Of a stretch of 64,000 nucleotides of DNA, positions 227 to 6,998 are shown piece by piece (the stretch's first letter is position 1; each line of letters begins with the position of its first letter). The stretch is from Stenotrophomonas sp. ASS1. Lineage in GTDB: Bacteria > Pseudomonadota > Gammaproteobacteria > Xanthomonadales > Xanthomonadaceae. The translations under genes were made by a program, and so were the position numbers. The stretch is taken from assembly GCF_004346925.1 (NCBI RefSeq), contig NZ_CP031167.1:1322001-1386000 (forward strand), given 5' to 3'. A model generated the notes under the pieces. That model saw nothing but the letters and a program-made list of their open reading frames with translations. It was not told where the DNA came from and did no database searches.

Positions 227-616
227 ATGGCAACTGAACTGACGATGCTGGCCTGGTCGGTGCTGCTGGGCTTTGTCTACATCTTCGCTACCTCCACTGT
301 GGTCACCCGCGAGCGCGGGATGAAGTGGAATGCCTCGGCGCGTGATGGCGAAGCCAGGCCACTCAGCCCGCTGGCCGGGCGCCTGCAGCGTGCGCAGGCC
401 AACTTCCTGGAGACGTTCCCGTTCTTCGCTGCCGCCGCCATCGCAGTGGTCGTGGCCGGGCGCGGCAACGACACCACGGCGCTGGCGGCGCAGGCCTACT
501 TCTGGGCGCGCGTGGTCTACCTGCCGCTGTATGCCGCGGGCGTGCCCTACGTGCGCAGCCTGGTCTGGGCAGTGTCGCTGCTGTCGATCCTGGCGCTGGT
601 GTTCGCGTTGTTGTGA
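227..616 (+). CDS. MAPEG family membrane protein
   Basis: A 129-residue integral membrane protein with about four hydrophobic segments. It has the MAPEG layout: a first helix, a short polar region with 'RGMKWNASARD', the conserved 'RAQANFLETFPFFAAA' stretch with the Asn/Glu pair, then two or three helices. MAPEG proteins include glutathione-dependent eicosanoid enzymes, but bacterial members such as this one have mostly unknown substrates. A GAGGAG-like ribosome site sits just before the ATG, overlapping the end of the preceding gene, so coupling to it is likely. The family call is firm; the function is not. Confidence 0.85.
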   Translation: MATELTMLAWSVLLGFVYIFATSTVVTRERGMKWNASARDGEARPLSPLAGRLQRAQANFLETFPFFAAAAIAVVVAGRGNDTTALAAQAYFWARVVYLPLYAAGVPYVRSLVWAVSLLSILALVFALL

Positions 617-696
617 TCCCGGCCTGATCCAGATCAAGGCCGGTCAGGTGCGCGGCGCTATGCTGGCGCGGACTGAATCAACGGCAGGAGGCGCGC

Positions 697-1875
697 ATGC
701 GCAGGATGGACGTGGTGGTGGTCGGCGCCGGACCGGCGGGGCTGTGTTTCGCGCGTGCGCTGGCCGGTAGCGGCCTGCAGGTCGGGCTGGTCGAAGTTCA
801 ACCGCGCCAGGCCCTTGCCGAGGCCGCCTTCGATGGCCGTGAGATTGCGCTGACCCATGCCTCGCGGCAGAGCATGGAGCAGCTGGGGCTGTGGCAGCGC
901 CTGCCGCAGGCCGAAGTCGCTGAACTGCGCGATGCCAAGGTGATGAACGGCGGCTCGCCGTTCGCGCTGACCTTCGCCAGCAGCCAGGTGGACGGTCAGC
1001 CGCTGGGTTGGCTGGTGCCCAACCATCTGATCCGCCGCGCTGCATGGGATGCCGTGCAGGGGCAGGACGGCCTGGAGCTGTTCGACGGGCGCAAGGTTCT
1101 GGGCGTGCAGGCCGATGCGCAGGGCCACGTGGTCAAACTCGATGACGGCAGCCAACTTCATGCGCGCCTGCTGGTCGCCGCTGACAGCCGCTTCTCCGCA
1201 ACCCGCCGCATGCTCGGCATCGGCGCGCAGATGCGCGACTTCGGCAAGTCGATGCTGGTGTGCCGCATGCAGGTTGAGCGTGATCATCACCACACTGCCT
1301 GGGAATGGTTCGGCTACGGCCGCACGATGGCGTTGCTGCCGCTCAACGAAGGCCAGGCATCAGCAGTGATCACGCTGCCACCGCGGCAGATTGAAGAACT
1401 GCTGGCGATGGACGAGGTGGCCTTCGGTGAGGCCATCGGTGCCTGCTTCGAACACCGTCTTGGCCGCATGCAGCCAGCGGCCACGCCGCAGGCGTATCCG
1501 CTGGTGGGTGTGTACGCGCACCGTTTCGTCGGCGAGCGTTCGGCGCTGATCGGCGATGCCGCGGTGGGCATGCATCCGGTCACCGCACATGGCTTCAATC
1601 TGGGCCTGGCCAGCGCGCAGCGGCTGGCGCAGGGCATCGTCGAACAGCAGCGTCGCGGTGCCGACATCGCTGCCGCCGGCATGCTGGCCAGGTACCAGCG
1701 GGGTCACCGGCTGGCGTCGCGGCCGCTGTACGAGGCCACCAATGCCATCGCCAGCCTGTATACCGACGATCGCCGCCCGGCGCGGCTGCTGCGCGCGGCG
1801 GGCCTGCGTCTGGCACAGGGCGTGGCACCGTTCAGGCAGCTGATCGCCTCGCACCTGACCCAGCGCGTGGCCTGA
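697..1875 (+). CDS. ubiM: UbiM-like FAD-dependent ubiquinone biosynthesis hydroxylase
   Basis: A 392-residue flavoprotein monooxygenase of the UbiH/UbiF/COQ6 family. The N-terminus has the FAD-binding Rossmann motif 'VVGAGPAGLCFA' (about residues 6-17). A second FAD motif begins 'GDAAVGMHPVTAHGFNLGL', about residue 287; the 'HPVTAHGFN' form is what I associate with the UbiM subgroup rather than UbiH or UbiF. UbiM enzymes hydroxylate the quinone ring during coenzyme Q synthesis, some at more than one ring carbon. An AGGAGG-type site precedes the ATG at good spacing. The wider family is certain; the UbiM subtype is from motif memory. Confidence 0.72.
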   Translation: MRRMDVVVVGAGPAGLCFARALAGSGLQVGLVEVQPRQALAEAAFDGREIALTHASRQSMEQLGLWQRLPQAEVAELRDAKVMNGGSPFALTFASSQVDGQPLGWLVPNHLIRRAAWDAVQGQDGLELFDGRKVLGVQADAQGHVVKLDDGSQLHARLLVAADSRFSATRRMLGIGAQMRDFGKSMLVCRMQVERDHHHTAWEWFGYGRTMALLPLNEGQASAVITLPPRQIEELLAMDEVAFGEAIGACFEHRLGRMQPAATPQAYPLVGVYAHRFVGERSALIGDAAVGMHPVTAHGFNLGLASAQRLAQGIVEQQRRGADIAAAGMLARYQRGHRLASRPLYEATNAIASLYTDDRRPARLLRAAGLRLAQGVAPFRQLIASHLTQRVA

Positions 1876-1900
1876 ACCGGTTCAGATCAGCCCGTTCAGA

Positions 1901-2122
1901 TCAGCCGGCGGCCAGCACCCGGATCTGGCTGTCGGCGAACTCGACCACCTGGCCTGCGCGGATCTTGCAGGCCTTGCGCAGTTCGACTTCGCCGTCGACC
2001 CGCACCTGGCCGTCACCGATGACCATCTTGGCCTCGCCGCCACTGGTGACCAGGTCGGCCAGCTTGAGCAGCTGCTTGAGTTCGACGTAGTCACCGTCGA
2101 GGTCGAATTCGAGAATCTGCAT
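1901..2122 (-). CDS. Small S4-domain RNA-binding protein (YbcJ-like)
   Basis: A 73-residue protein that is essentially a single S4 domain. It has 'LKQLLKLADLVTSGGEAK' followed by 'GQVRVDGEVELRKACKIRAGQVVEF', the usual S4 pattern of a helix, the G-x-V-x-V-N/D-G turn and the K-I/L-x-x-G-D/Q strand. It resembles the stand-alone YbcJ family thought to bind structured RNA. The start at 2122 is chosen because the S4 domain begins immediately after it and a CAGGAA site lies upstream; longer in-frame starts would add unrelated sequence. It faces the 5' leader of the plus-strand DEAD-box helicase gene. Confidence 0.8.
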   Translation of the reverse strand: MQILEFDLDGDYVELKQLLKLADLVTSGGEAKMVIGDGQVRVDGEVELRKACKIRAGQVVEFADSQIRVLAAG

Positions 2123-2250
2123 GGAGCGAGGTTCCTGGGGAAGGGCGCAGCCAGCGGCCGGGCCGGTGAAGAGGGCGCGTATTGTGCGCCAGCTTGGGGC
2201 ATGACGGTACGCGCACGGCAAGCTGTACGCCTTGTTCAGGATCAATGCGG

Positions 2251-2373
2251 TATGATTCCGCTCTGAGCGAGTGAAATCTCCTCCAACCGAGCAGCGCCAG
2301 GGCACGCGATAAGAAGGGCGCCCAAAGCGCGGACCATCACCTTTTTTATCGCACTGCCAGGAAGACGGCAGTG
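2251..2373 (+). promoter_or_regulatory. Candidate promoter and structured leader of the DEAD-box helicase gene
   Basis: The 266-bp gap before the helicase holds a TATGAT-like -10 element at 2251-2256 without a convincing -35. It is followed by a leader of more than 100 nt ending in a hairpin (arms 2352-2358 and 2367-2373). The loop carries an AGGAAG Shine-Dalgarno-like sequence. Long structured leaders are common for cold-inducible deaD genes, but regulation here is inferred only. Confidence 0.35.
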
Positions 2374-2388
2374 TCTTCGGAGTTCCCC

Positions 2389-4347
2389 ATGTCCCAAGAT
2401 TCCCAAGCGCCGCTGCAGTTCGCGCAGCTCGGCCTGTCCGAGCCCGTGATGCAGGCGGTCACCGCCATCGGCTACGAAACCCCGTCGCCGATCCAGGCCG
2501 CCACCATCCCGGCGATGCTGGAAGGCCGCGACGTGCTGGGCCAGGCCCAGACCGGCACCGGCAAGACCGCAGCGTTCGCGCTGCCGGTTCTGTCCAACAT
2601 CGATCTGCAGCAGATCAAGCCGCAGGCCCTGATCCTGGCGCCGACCCGCGAACTGGCCATCCAGGTTGCCGAGGCGTTCCAGTCCTATTCGTCGAAGATC
2701 CCGGGCTTCCGCGTGCTGCCGGTGTACGGCGGCCAGCCGTACGGCCAGCAGCTGTCGGCCCTGCGCCGCGGCGTGCACATCGTGGTCGGTACCCCCGGCC
2801 GCGTGATCGACCACCTGGACCGCAGCACTCTGGACCTGTCCGAGCTGAAGACGCTGGTGCTGGACGAAGCCGATGAAATGCTGCGCATGGGCTTCATCGA
2901 CGACGTCGAAGCCGTGCTGAAGAAGCTGCCGGAGCAGCGCCAGGTGGCCCTGTTTTCGGCCACCATGCCGCCGCAGATCCGCCGCATCGCGCAGACCTAC
3001 CTGCAGGACCCGGTGGAAGTGACCATCGCGGCCAAGACCACCACCTCGGCCAACATCCGCCAGCGTTACTGGTGGGTGAGCGGCATGCACAAGCTGGACG
3101 CGCTGACCCGCATCCTGGAAGTCGAGCCGTTCGACGCGATGATCATCTTCGCGCGCACCAAGGCCGGCACCGAAGAACTGGCCAGCAAGCTGCAGGCCCG
3201 TGGCCTGGCCGCTGCCGCCATCAACGGTGACATGCAGCAGGCCCAGCGTGAGCGCACCATCGCCATGCTGAAGGAAGGCAAGCTGGACATCCTGGTCGCC
3301 ACCGACGTGGCTGCCCGCGGCCTGGACGTGGAGCGCATCAGCCACGTGCTGAACTACGACATCCCGTACGACACCGAAAGCTACGTGCACCGCATCGGCC
3401 GTACCGGTCGTGCCGGCCGCAGCGGCGAGGCGATCCTGTTCGCCACCCCGCGCGAGAAGGGCATGCTGCGCCAGATCGAGCGCGCCACCCGCCAGCCGAT
3501 CGAAGAGATGCAGCTGCCGAGTGTGGAAGCGGTCAACGACACCCGCATCAACAAGTTCACCTCGCGCATCAGCGAAACCCTCGGCGCCGGTGGCCTGGAC
3601 TTCTACCGCCAGCTGCTGGAGCGTTTCGAGAACGAGCAGAACGTGCCGGCCATCGAAGTGGCTGCCGCGCTGGCCAAGATGCTGCAGGGTGACACCCCGT
3701 TCCTGCTGCAGCCGCCGGTGCGTGCCCCGCGTGAAGAGCGCGCACCGCGCGAACGCTTCGACCGTGGTGACCGTCCGGAACGTGGCGATCGCTTCGACCG
3801 CAACGAGCGTGGTCCGCGCTTCGAGCGTGGCCCGCGCCGCGACGACGCCGAAGGTGGCTTCGAGCAGCGTCCGCGCCGTGAGGTTCCGCCGCGTGGTGCG
3901 CCGGAGCAGGGCATGGAGACCTACCGCATTTCGGTCGGCCACCAGCACGGCGTGAAGCCGGCCAACATCGTTGGCGCCATTGCCAACGAAGCCGGTCTGG
4001 AAAGCCGCTTCATCGGCCGCATCGACATCCACGACGACTTCTCGCTGCTGGACCTGCCGGCACAGATGCCGCCGGACGTGCTGTCGCACCTGCAGAAGGT
4101 GTGGGTGTCCGGCCAGCAGCTGCAGATGCGTGCGCTGGCTCCGGGTGAAGACACCAACCCGGCCCCGCGTCCGTTCAAGCCGCGCTTCGACAGGCGTGGT
4201 CCGGGCGGCCCGGGTGGCCCGCGTCGCGGTGGCCCGGGCGGTCCGGGTGGCCACGGTGGCGACCGCGGCGGTGACCGCGGCGGTGACCGCGACAGCCGCC
4301 CGCCGCGTCGTGACGGCTTCAAGCCGCGCGGCCCGCGCAGCTTCTAA
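2389..4347 (+). CDS. deaD: DEAD-box ATP-dependent RNA helicase (DeaD/CsdA type)
   Basis: A 652-residue RNA helicase acting on structured RNA in ribosome assembly, mRNA decay or cold adaptation. Motifs in order: Q motif with the aromatic 'F' at 11; Walker A AQTGTGKT 53-60; PTRELA 85-90; DEAD 159-162; SAT 190-192; HRIGRTGR 334-341. A basic Arg/Gly linker (about 455-510) leads to a DbpA-like RNA-binding fold ('ISVGHQHGVKPANIVGAIA'), then a tail of repeated Gly-Pro-Gly-Gly and Gly-Gly-Asp-Arg units. The ATG at 2389 has GGAG five bases upstream. A GTG six codons earlier (2371) also has a Shine-Dalgarno-like site and could give a slightly longer protein. CsdA/DeaD and RhlE-like names are both possible. 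Confidence 0.93.
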   Translation: MSQDSQAPLQFAQLGLSEPVMQAVTAIGYETPSPIQAATIPAMLEGRDVLGQAQTGTGKTAAFALPVLSNIDLQQIKPQALILAPTRELAIQVAEAFQSYSSKIPGFRVLPVYGGQPYGQQLSALRRGVHIVVGTPGRVIDHLDRSTLDLSELKTLVLDEADEMLRMGFIDDVEAVLKKLPEQRQVALFSATMPPQIRRIAQTYLQDPVEVTIAAKTTTSANIRQRYWWVSGMHKLDALTRILEVEPFDAMIIFARTKAGTEELASKLQARGLAAAAINGDMQQAQRERTIAMLKEGKLDILVATDVAARGLDVERISHVLNYDIPYDTESYVHRIGRTGRAGRSGEAILFATPREKGMLRQIERATRQPIEEMQLPSVEAVNDTRINKFTSRISETLGAGGLDFYRQLLERFENEQNVPAIEVAAALAKMLQGDTPFLLQPPVRAPREERAPRERFDRGDRPERGDRFDRNERGPRFERGPRRDDAEGGFEQRPRREVPPRGAPEQGMETYRISVGHQHGVKPANIVGAIANEAGLESRFIGRIDIHDDFSLLDLPAQMPPDVLSHLQKVWVSGQQLQMRALAPGEDTNPAPRPFKPRFDRRGPGGPGGPRRGGPGGPGGHGGDRGGDRGGDRDSRPPRRDGFKPRGPRSF

Positions 4348-4366: not shown

Positions 4367-4394
4367 ACAACGCCAGCCTCCGGGCTGGCGTTGT
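4367..4394 (+). terminator. Stem-loop terminator after the helicase gene
   Basis: A perfect 12-bp stem (4367-4378 with 4383-4394) closed by a TCCG tetraloop, 20 bases after the helicase stop codon. Only a short, weak T-run follows. The position and strength fit a transcription terminator or mRNA 3'-end stabiliser. Confidence 0.65.
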
Positions 4395-4409
4395 CCGTTA
4401 TGGGCCTGG

Positions 4410-4492
4410 AAAAGGGGACGGAGGGGATTAAGTCGTTTATGCCCGGCAGTGCGCTTATGCCGAAAACGACTTAATCCCCTCCGTCCCCTTTT
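4410..4492. repeat. 29-bp perfect inverted repeat with 25-bp loop
   Basis: Two perfectly complementary 29-base arms (4410-4438 and 4464-4492) flank 25 bases that hold a small inner stem (CGGCA at 4444-4448, TGCCG at 4458-4462). The arms carry the purine-rich block GGGGACGGAGGGGATTAAG. The unit is unlike the SMAG palindromes elsewhere in the window and looks like a distinct mobile or regulatory palindrome. I have a memory of similar sequence in Stenotrophomonas intergenic regions but cannot verify copy number. Confidence 0.8.
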
Positions 4493-4574
4493 CGCATGGC
4501 AAACACATTGCCGGTCATAGGCTGGGCCGGTTCCAAGGGAGGTTGTCACCGCAGCACATTCGGGGGGATCCGGG

Positions 4575-6998
4575 ATGGGTAGAAGTGGCACGGACCAGCA
4601 GAGCCGGCGGGTGCCGATGACCCGTGGCCTGGGATTGCGCTTTGCGTTGTTGACGGGCATGGCGATCGGGTTGGTCGCGCTGTCCGCGTTGATCCAGGAA
4701 CTGCAGGCGGCCTCGACGGCCTGGATTGCCGGCCAGGGCTACTGGTCGCGGGGGCAGCAGGATGCGACCGCTGCGCTGAGCCGCTACCTGGCGCGTGGCG
4801 ATGCGCAGGACCTGGATGACGCGCGCCAGGCCCTGCGGATTCCGTTGGGGGATCTGCAGGCCCGGCTGGCGCTGGAACAGGCGGTACCGGACGAGGAGAA
4901 GGCCCGGCAGGGTTTCCTGCAGGGCGGCAACGCGCGCGCCGATATTCCACGCCTGGTGTTCTCGTTCCGCTACGCCCGTGACCTGGGAGCATTCCGCGAA
5001 GCCACTGCACTGTGGCGGCAGACCGATGGTGATCTGGAGGCTGTGCAGGCCCTGGTCGCCGAGCTGCAACGGAGGCATGCGGCAGGTGAACTGCCCGTGG
5101 CCGACCGCAATCGCTACCTGCAGCAGCTGCGGGATCTCGACCGCCGCCTGCAGGTGCAGGCCCAGGCGTTCTCGCAGGCGCTGCTGAGGATGGCCACCAT
5201 GGTCCGGATCGCCACGCTGATGGTTGGTGGCCTGTCGGTGCTGGTGATCAGCCTGATGGCAGTGGCGCTGGCGCGTCGTGTAGGCAAGGACCTGACCGAG
5301 CACGAGAGCCGCTTCCGCGCGGCGTTCTACCAGGCCAATGTCGGCATGCTGAAGCTCGACACCGATGGCCGCGTGGTCGAGGCCAACCAGGCGATGGCGG
5401 ATATCCTCGACTATCGGCGCGATGTGCTGCTGCAGATGCTGCTGGGTGACCTGCTGATGGAGGGGGAACTGGTCCTCGATGGTGTCGGCCGCATCGACTG
5501 GGACCGGCAGCTGCGGCCGAGCGAGCTGCGTTTCCGCCGGCGCGATGGCAGCCTCGTCTGGGGACGCTGGAGCGGTACCGCGGTTCGCGGCTCGGGCGGT
5601 GGATTGTCGGTGTTCGCGATCATCGAGGATGTCAGCCAGAACCATGCACTGGCGCGCGAGATCGAGCATCACGCCAGCCACGATCCGCTGACCGGCCTGA
5701 TCAACCGCCGCGAGATCGAACGCCTGCTGGAACGCGCGCTGCTGCAGGTCCGGACCGACGGTGGTACGCATGCGCTGTGCTACATCAACCTGGACCACTT
5801 CAAGCTGGTCAACGACAGCTTCGGTCATGCCGCCGGCGACCAGATGCTGCGCGGTTTCGCCGACTATCTGGTGGCGGCGGTGCGTGATGGCGATTGGGTC
5901 GGCCGCCTGGGGGCCGATGAGTTTGCGGTGTTCCTCGCCCACGCCGGCCAGGATGAAGCCAAGCGGGTACTGCAGCGGGTGATCCGCAACCTGGGCCAGG
6001 CCACGTTCCCGATCAGCGAGGGCAGCCCGCAGTTGAGCTGCAGCATCGGCGTGGTCGAGGTCAGTGCCGACGCCCCCGATGTGAACTGGCTGATGAGCGC
6101 TGCCGACAGCGCCTGCTATGCCGCCAAGCAGGCCGGTCGCAACCGCGTGCACTGCTTCAACGAGAACCGCATGGCGCTGGAGGAGCGGCGGCAGGAGGCC
6201 GAGCGTCTGCAGGGTGTCAGCCTGGCCATGGCGGAGAATCGCATGCTGCTGTACGCGCAGCGCATCGCCCGCGTGGGCGATCCGTCCTACCTGCACTACG
6301 AAGTGCTGGTGCGCATGCGCGGTACCGATGGCAGCCTGCACCTGCCCGGTCAGTTCATGCCGGCGGTGGAGCGATACGGCATGGCGGTGGCGCTGGATCG
6401 GCACGTGCTCGGGCTGTTGTTCCGCCACCTGCAGGTCTGCCCGGCACACGTGCGCCAGCTGGGCCTGTGCAACGTCAACGTTTCGGCGCAGTCGATCGCC
6501 GAGCCCGGATTCCTCGCCTTCGTCTGCGACCTGCTCGAGCGCAACCGCGCGCTGGCCTCCAAGTTGTGCTTCGAGATCACCGAGACCGCGGCGATCAGCA
6601 ACCTCAGCCAGGCCCGCGCCTTCATCGATGCGGTGAAGGCACGGGGGTGCCGGATGGCGCTGGATGACTTCGGCTCCGGCCTGTCTTCCTTCGGCTACCT
6701 GCGCCAGTTGCCGGCGGACATCCTGAAGATCGACGGCGCCTTCGTGCGCGACATGGATACCGACCCTGTCAGCCACGCCACGGTGCGTGCGATCAGCGAG
6801 CTCGGGCGCGAGCTGCAGATGGAAGTAGTGGCCGAGTGGGTGGAGACCGCCGAGGTTGCCGGTGCGCTGACCCGGCTTGGCGTACAAGGGCTGCAGGGCT
6901 ATGCCATCGAACGGCCGCAGCCGCTGGAGCGGCTGACCCTGGTCGATCTGCGCCCGGTACGGCTGGTCGCGGTGAAGGGGCCGCCGGCGGCTGGCTGA
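4575..6998 (+). CDS. Membrane PAS-GGDEF-EAL protein, probable c-di-GMP phosphodiesterase
   Basis: An 807-residue signalling protein: a TM helix at about 19-43, a periplasmic helical region at 45-205, a second TM at 210-234, PAS at about 245-358, GGDEF at 365-525 and EAL at 545-790. The diguanylate cyclase signature is degenerate, GADEF at 446-450, so synthesis activity is doubtful. The EAL half keeps an EVL variant (576-578), FEITET near 666-671, DDFGSG at 697-702, LKID at 717-720 and the later VVAEWVE segment, which supports c-di-GMP hydrolysis. An in-frame ATG at 4617 is an alternative start. It is the first of three c-di-GMP genes in a row. Confidence 0.9.
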   Translation: MGRSGTDQQSRRVPMTRGLGLRFALLTGMAIGLVALSALIQELQAASTAWIAGQGYWSRGQQDATAALSRYLARGDAQDLDDARQALRIPLGDLQARLALEQAVPDEEKARQGFLQGGNARADIPRLVFSFRYARDLGAFREATALWRQTDGDLEAVQALVAELQRRHAAGELPVADRNRYLQQLRDLDRRLQVQAQAFSQALLRMATMVRIATLMVGGLSVLVISLMAVALARRVGKDLTEHESRFRAAFYQANVGMLKLDTDGRVVEANQAMADILDYRRDVLLQMLLGDLLMEGELVLDGVGRIDWDRQLRPSELRFRRRDGSLVWGRWSGTAVRGSGGGLSVFAIIEDVSQNHALAREIEHHASHDPLTGLINRREIERLLERALLQVRTDGGTHALCYINLDHFKLVNDSFGHAAGDQMLRGFADYLVAAVRDGDWVGRLGADEFAVFLAHAGQDEAKRVLQRVIRNLGQATFPISEGSPQLSCSIGVVEVSADAPDVNWLMSAADSACYAAKQAGRNRVHCFNENRMALEERRQEAERLQGVSLAMAENRMLLYAQRIARVGDPSYLHYEVLVRMRGTDGSLHLPGQFMPAVERYGMAVALDRHVLGLLFRHLQVCPAHVRQLGLCNVNVSAQSIAEPGFLAFVCDLLERNRALASKLCFEITETAAISNLSQARAFIDAVKARGCRMALDDFGSGLSSFGYLRQLPADILKIDGAFVRDMDTDPVSHATVRAISELGRELQMEVVAEWVETAEVAGALTRLGVQGLQGYAIERPQPLERLTLVDLRPVRLVAVKGPPAAG

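Follow-up and report, generated by a model that had tools for sequence, protein, structure and literature searches.

The closest described systems are the TIRYTs and their associated TIR families, which were reported in 2013 by Di Nocera, De Gregorio and Rocco (PMC3733652). According to the available text of that paper, S. maltophilia K279a possesses two TIRYT genes (ORF1152 and ORF4509), the TIRs of ORF1152 are self-complementary, and TIR families are likewise present in strains R551-3, JV3 and D457. In this arrangement, also termed a TIRtron, a Y1 HuH gene is bracketed by inverted repeats that are unrelated to GTAG REPs and that recur genome-wide singly, as dimers or in groups; as far as that text describes them, both features are shared by the family analyzed here. 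In the TnpAY1 classification of Quentin et al. (2018; PMC6006769), which cites Di Nocera for the TIRs, the TIRYTs constitute subclass 2.1, which is equated there with RAYT group 1 of Bertels et al. (2017); the accessible portions of that classification state that neither an automatic nor a manual search detected REP-like sequences near subclass 2.1 genes. The transposases considered below resemble subclass 2.1, as characterized in those portions, in their Y---NP tyrosine motif, C-terminal extension and low copy number, and they are likened to the mostly proteobacterial group 2.1.1 by such features rather than by placement in a tree. A second relevant system is that of the Stenotrophomonas REPIN/SMAG GTAG repeats (Nunvar 2013; PMC3686654), which, within what is accessible of that study, are similarly described as intergenic inverted doublets exhibiting vertical persistence, with one low-copy Y1 protein mobilizing each repeat class. 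These are, however, GTAG-tagged short palindromes of a different sequence, whereas the family described here has an arm of about 30 nt, lacks a GTAG tag and terminates in A4 and T4.

The hairpin of interest is located within a 64-kb window (the whole stretch of DNA that was analyzed; 64,000 nt) of the genome of Stenotrophomonas sp. ASS1, termed here G000, which corresponds to positions 1,322,001 to 1,386,000 of NZ_CP031167.1. The left arm (TIR copy 1; 30 nt; + strand), defined by the inverted repeat and by core matches, occupies positions 4409-4438 and contains a 19-nt core, GGGGACGGAGGGGATTAAG, at 4414-4432 that is preceded by AAAA at 4410-4413; the right arm (TIR copy 2, inverted; - strand) occupies 4464-4493, with its core at 4470-4488 and TTTT at 4489-4492. 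The two 30-nt arms are 100% complementary and are spaced 25 nt apart. An initial sequence-only reading, which had proposed perfect 29-bp arms, was thus correct regarding their exactness, but each arm is one base longer. The intervening 25-nt loop (4439-4463; no strand), as delimited by the fold and by orthologue alignment, has its own small stem, as had been proposed: in the DNA fold CGGCA at 4444-4448 pairs with TGCCG at 4458-4462. This loop type is conserved across most orthologues of the site. The DNA fold of the element has an energy of -43.4 kcal/mol, compared with an average of -15.5 for shuffled sequences (z = -10.8; none of 200 shuffles equaled it), and matches to the arm core within the window number two, namely both hairpin arms, versus zero expected.

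The window hairpin is not between convergent genes: it lies 62 nt past the stop codon of a DEAD-box RNA helicase gene of the DeaD/DbpA type (2371-4347; + strand) and 80 nt ahead of the start of a gene encoding a PAS-GGDEF-EAL protein (4575-6998; + strand), both of which run in the same direction. The terminator that was said to precede the hairpin corresponds to a separate, 12-bp terminator-like stem (4367-4378 / 4383-4394; + strand), which is outside the element and is present in many orthologues. This stem is conserved across most of the genus, including species without the hairpin, and, located 3' of the helicase gene, it looks like that gene's own terminator. An Rfam search with the bare hairpin yielded nothing above threshold (sub-threshold, miRNA-type matches were dismissed as chance), and neither the plasmid nor the phage collection searched contained a match to the element.

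That the hairpin belongs to a dispersed palindrome family, as had been suspected, is evident from the 4.56-Mb G000 chromosome, where the arm core has 93 matches (with at most three mismatches) versus zero for a reversed-pattern control; these correspond to 43 hairpins plus 7 solo arms. Over both arms the consensus is AAAAGGGGACGGAGGGGATTAAGTCGTTT, and 32 of the 43 hairpins have the same 22-nt core in both arms. An A4 starts the left arm in at least 39 of the 43 hairpins and a T4 ends the right arm in all of them. Loops are of 6-7 nt (n = 21), 15-18 nt (n = 16) or 25-127 nt (n = 6), so that the window copy, with its 25-nt loop, is among the less compact. Within-element arm identity (1195 of 1247 cells) is higher than in any of 5000 shuffles (mean 1170.7), so that each pair of arms behaves as one unit in its evolution or spread. 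One copy (L032 232-409; G000 2107432-2107608) has a 127-nt loop holding a second, perfect-looking hairpin that starts GTGGGGACGTAAGGTGTTGATC and that is perhaps a further TIR-like family nested within the arm family.

Whether other copies exist in related genomes had been regarded as distinguishing a mobile palindrome from a local regulatory hairpin; a search with the 22-nt arm core, GGGGACGGAGGGRATTAAGTCG, found it in 39 of the 91 genus genomes, with 1 to 104 copies per arm-bearing genome (both strands). That the genus is Stenotrophomonas is supported by a protein of one such genome (L110), which shares 98% identity with an S. pavanii protein in a named collection. The 19-nt core was found in 15 of 61 relatives, every one of the same genus, and was absent from all 24 genomes of other genera searched. 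Searching the literature for the arm sequence GGGGACGGAGGG found no match in text, letters inside figures being outside its reach.

A transposase gene flanked by the arm, which the sequence-only reading had suggested looking for, occurs in relatives. In G029, for example, two inverted arms 876 bp apart enclose a single gene. The protein encoded by such genes is 234-239 residues long and matches Pfam Y1_Tnp (E = 1.5e-12) as well as NCBIfam REP_Tyr_transpos, the latter at 69 bits, which is under the 80-bit cut-off; the HuH and tyrosine motifs are invariant across 15 aligned transposases. Transposases of this clade (at least 62% identity) were found in 20 of the 91 genus genomes, and in all 20 of these the gene is flanked on both sides by arms in inverted orientation having 0-1 mismatches to the 22-mer. 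The arm occurs in all 20 genomes with the transposase clade versus 19 of the 71 others (Fisher p = 1e-9, a guide value only, inasmuch as it ignores phylogeny). Because those 19 arm-bearing genomes lack the cognate gene, the arms can persist without it.

More divergent transposases, at about 50-55% identity, carry different TIRs that have a core in common, such as GGGGACGGGTGTA and AGGGACGGAGGTAGTTAAT. TIRs of the latter type are present in 2-9 copies each within G023, G080, G013 and G093 (that is, within all four genomes harboring that sub-clade), and in 1-2 copies each within G064, G019 and G101, while all 39 genomes bearing the G000-type arm lack them; the sister arm sequence is GGGACGGAGGTAGTTAAT. 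Homologues elsewhere, of which the flanks of 32 were surveyed (hand-chosen from 80 named loci), mostly have related inverted repeats on both sides, for example AAAGGGGACGGAGGGAATTAAG in Luteimonas and GGGGTCAGAACACTT in Rheinheimera; two of the 32 are without an inverted repeat and several have 9-12-nt, chance-level matches alone. The start of the arm, GGGGACGG, matches the TIR motif GGGGWSAS at seven of eight positions, and homologues elsewhere show GGGGTCAG and GGGACGGAGG.

Given that the second TIRYT of genome G085 has self-complementary TIRs like those of ORF1152, namely GGGGTCAGATCCC, the G000-type arm fits ORF4509. Hence, the arm family is probably the ORF4509 TIR family of S. maltophilia, a match made by map position in G085 and by exclusion rather than by sequence letters.

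The arm-flanked transposase is absent from G000 itself (protein search, E ≤ 1e-10). In relatives the usual order of the locus is: a TonB-like gene, a solo arm, an AraC-like gene, arm-tnpA-arm and an ABC permease gene (names read off the translations by eye); the solo arm, about 1.2 kb upstream and past the TonB-like gene, is present in 16 of the 20 transposase loci (L100-L115). At this locus G000 still has the solo arm and the two neighbouring genes, but in place of arm-tnpA-arm it carries an unrelated gene together with a GTAG repeat, which indicates that G000 has lost the transposase and that the solo arm remains in its usual place. The unrelated small gene lies at about 2592-3018 of L336 (G000 near 4351391). 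Since the divergent transposases of G023 and G094 occupy the same locus as the clade transposase, the transposase is an old resident there rather than a frequent jumper.

Because the same arms flank the transposase in all 20 of the clade genomes and because the arm is restricted to the genus in our sample, the hairpin is quite likely to be a non-autonomous TIR dimer of a TIRYT, a Y1/HuH transposase of the single-strand type belonging to the IS200/IS605-RAYT superfamily. In the published REP model, folded single strands are the substrate that a Y1 protein cuts and religates. The TIRYT, by homology, would nick and rejoin the folded single strand at its A4-GGGG / CCCC-T4 ends and would thereby have copied the two-arm unit into gene ends, where copies may be retained by selection or by mere tolerance. 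Between convergent genes the settled element could then serve as a bidirectional intrinsic terminator, with a GC-rich stem and a T tract on each strand--a role that might preserve the stem once the transposase is gone. Such mobility is inferred here from how the hairpin is distributed among genomes.

The window site was compared with its orthologues in an alignment of 50 genomes. The hairpin is at the same position in about 30 species, whose flanks differ by 5-20%; it is decayed in G036, which has one arm left genome-wide; it has lost part of its second arm in G033; it occurs as a compact variant in G100 and G105; and it is missing from others. (Interpreting the compact hairpin of G100 as an ORF1152-type TIR was rejected, because TIRs of that type read GGGGTCAGATCCC.) Being orthologous across so many species, the window copy is old, with its arms maintained, rather than newly arrived; recent spread, which the sequence-only reading had offered alongside selection as an implication of the exact arms, is not supported at this site, given this age, the absence of a target duplication at the empty sites examined and the lack of a transposase in G000. 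Exact arms reflect stem maintenance or arm-to-arm homogenization as much as youth.

Members of the family are typically positioned at gene ends. Based on gene calls from a codon model trained on the 64-kb window, convergent genes flank 26 of the 43 G000 hairpins (19 of the 32 for which both sides are well scored), and 42 of the 43 adjoin a gene 3' end on one side or both. By comparison, 6 of 44 adjacent gene pairs within the window are convergent (by our own gene calls), and thus the hairpins show a strong convergent excess (Fisher p = 5e-6). A stop codon is within 10 nt of the element at 49 of 63 scored 3' ends (median 5). On both strands of the element the stem is followed at once by a T tract (...CCCCTTTT); in other words, because right arms end in T4 and nearly all left arms start with A4, each strand reads as a stem plus a T tract. 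A scan for the intrinsic-terminator consensus returned no sites at the window hairpin, the loop of which exceeds the scan's 8-nt limit. The placement and the T-tract ends suggest that hairpins between convergent genes act as bidirectional terminators; a useful role of this kind is favoured by those tracts and by the exchange of unrelated hairpin families within one slot.

The slots themselves are variously empty, filled or differently filled. One slot is truly empty in two distant species, where the convergent stop codons abut (TGATCA), and at another a single base separates the stops in two species; at the empty sites compared, the G000 hairpin sits exactly between the convergent stops. Target duplications between genomes, which the sequence-only reading had proposed checking for, were not seen at the empty sites of G014 and G062 nor at the near-empty sites of G070, G029 and G092, these comparisons being few and distant. 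Occupied slots are, however, the commoner case. At four convergent slots, species without the hairpin mostly have GTAG REPs, in 21 of 37, 16 of 35, 24 of 40 and 18 of 40 rows, where slot classes are based on loose patterns with some overlapping labels (for example, L154, L155 and L371 are each tagged as two families) and where rows with one flank missing are left out (1 of 50 at the window slot and 2 at L046). At two slots other species have the TIR hairpin of their own divergent transposase, namely G023, G080 and G093 at one and G094 at the other. Three of seven distinct sister-family slots (grouped into seven by eye from their flanks) coincide with G000-family slots; with the number of possible slots set at 600 to 3000, at least three of seven would be shared by chance with a probability of 0.015 to 0.0002 and, over the same range, at least four of all 24 with a probability of 0.10 to 0.0004. 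These values are suggestive of slot sharing between hairpin families beyond chance. The notion that all slots are shared by descent is weakened by G029, which has the same arm and for which 1 of 13 non-transposase slots coincides with one in G000 (13 of its 14 were compared), and by G102, for which none of four compared slots does. Compensated arm changes are clear relative to shuffles at one of five slots, marginal at two and lacking at the other two, in a test that counts two genomes (G100 and G032) twice.

Such observations bear on the possibility that the hairpin is purely a host terminator or an mRNA-stabilizing structure, spread by selection and gene conversion without any transposase. 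Its location between convergent stops, its T tracts on both strands, the compensated changes at some orthologous slots, its persistence in the 19 genomes lacking the cognate gene and its replacement by other hairpin families within the same slots would all be expected of a host structure; nevertheless, this is improbable given that in 20 of 20 relatives a transposase gene stands between copies of the identical arm and that arm sequences vary with transposase clade. A different proposal, under which the TIRYT is a domesticated editor that maintains bidirectional terminators, is that gene-end slots are kept filled and that the hairpin in a slot is edited in situ to follow the divergence of the resident transposase and its TIR. 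This would be in keeping with orthologous slots that hold a 4509-type hairpin in one clade and a differently spelled TIR hairpin of the local transposase in another, the transposase being at a single syntenic locus in both; as a general account it is speculative and rather unlikely.

Mobilization from outside the TIRYT group may also be considered. The family has the general form of a GTAG (SMAG) REP/REPIN (an inverted-repeat hairpin in tens of intergenic copies) and G000 encodes three Y1 proteins, one of which, as a RAYT, could in principle move it. Yet the arm consensus is devoid of a GTAG/GTGG tag at the stem foot and resembles none of the 13 Stenotrophomonas REP classes (SM1-SM13) in the published descriptions available, which agrees with the earlier assignment of the hairpin to a non-SMAG type; moreover, all three Y1 genes lie within GTAG repeats matching published classes SM8, SM3 and SM12, with no arm inside their 1.5-kb flanks, which makes this origin very unlikely. 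A classical MITE, moved by a DDE transposase and bordered by target-site duplications, would also be short and non-coding with long perfect inverted repeats, but hardly any credence can be given to this, considering that the empty and near-empty sites examined show no such duplication and that the gene flanked by the arm encodes a Y1 rather than a DDE protein. The TIR dimer of a TIRYT remains the preferred interpretation.

The accessible text of PMC3733652 contains nothing on loss of a transposase with retention of its family, nor on TIRs fitted tightly between convergent stop codons or slots shared between families. Relative to the published text available, four findings are new: a hairpin population orphaned of its transposase, convergent placement tight against the stop codons, arms that match the transposase clade, and slots held in common by different families. 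An apparently one-off hairpin thus becomes part of a transposase-linked repeat system within subclass 2.1, where the classification, in its available portions, found no repeats. With the arm and its cognate gene now identified, along with genomes that have or lack that gene, the 43 orphaned, intact hairpins of G000, alongside populations having a live transposase, provide a natural experiment on whether such elements persist by movement or by usefulness; because they fit almost perfectly between convergent stop codons, the idea that they are useful can be tested directly.

Two further observations concern neighboring elements. At the convergent slot L040, G035, G073 and G098 (L203, L204 and L244) carry some 700 bp of inserted sequence in place of a hairpin. 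A second (1152-type) TIRYT is found at L345, L342 and L341 (in G085, G100 and G095, respectively); its loci are ringed by several self-complementary GGGGTCAGATCCCTTTCGC...GCGAAAGGGATCTGACCCC hairpins, some of them in tandem, and in several genomes its gene has an internal stop.
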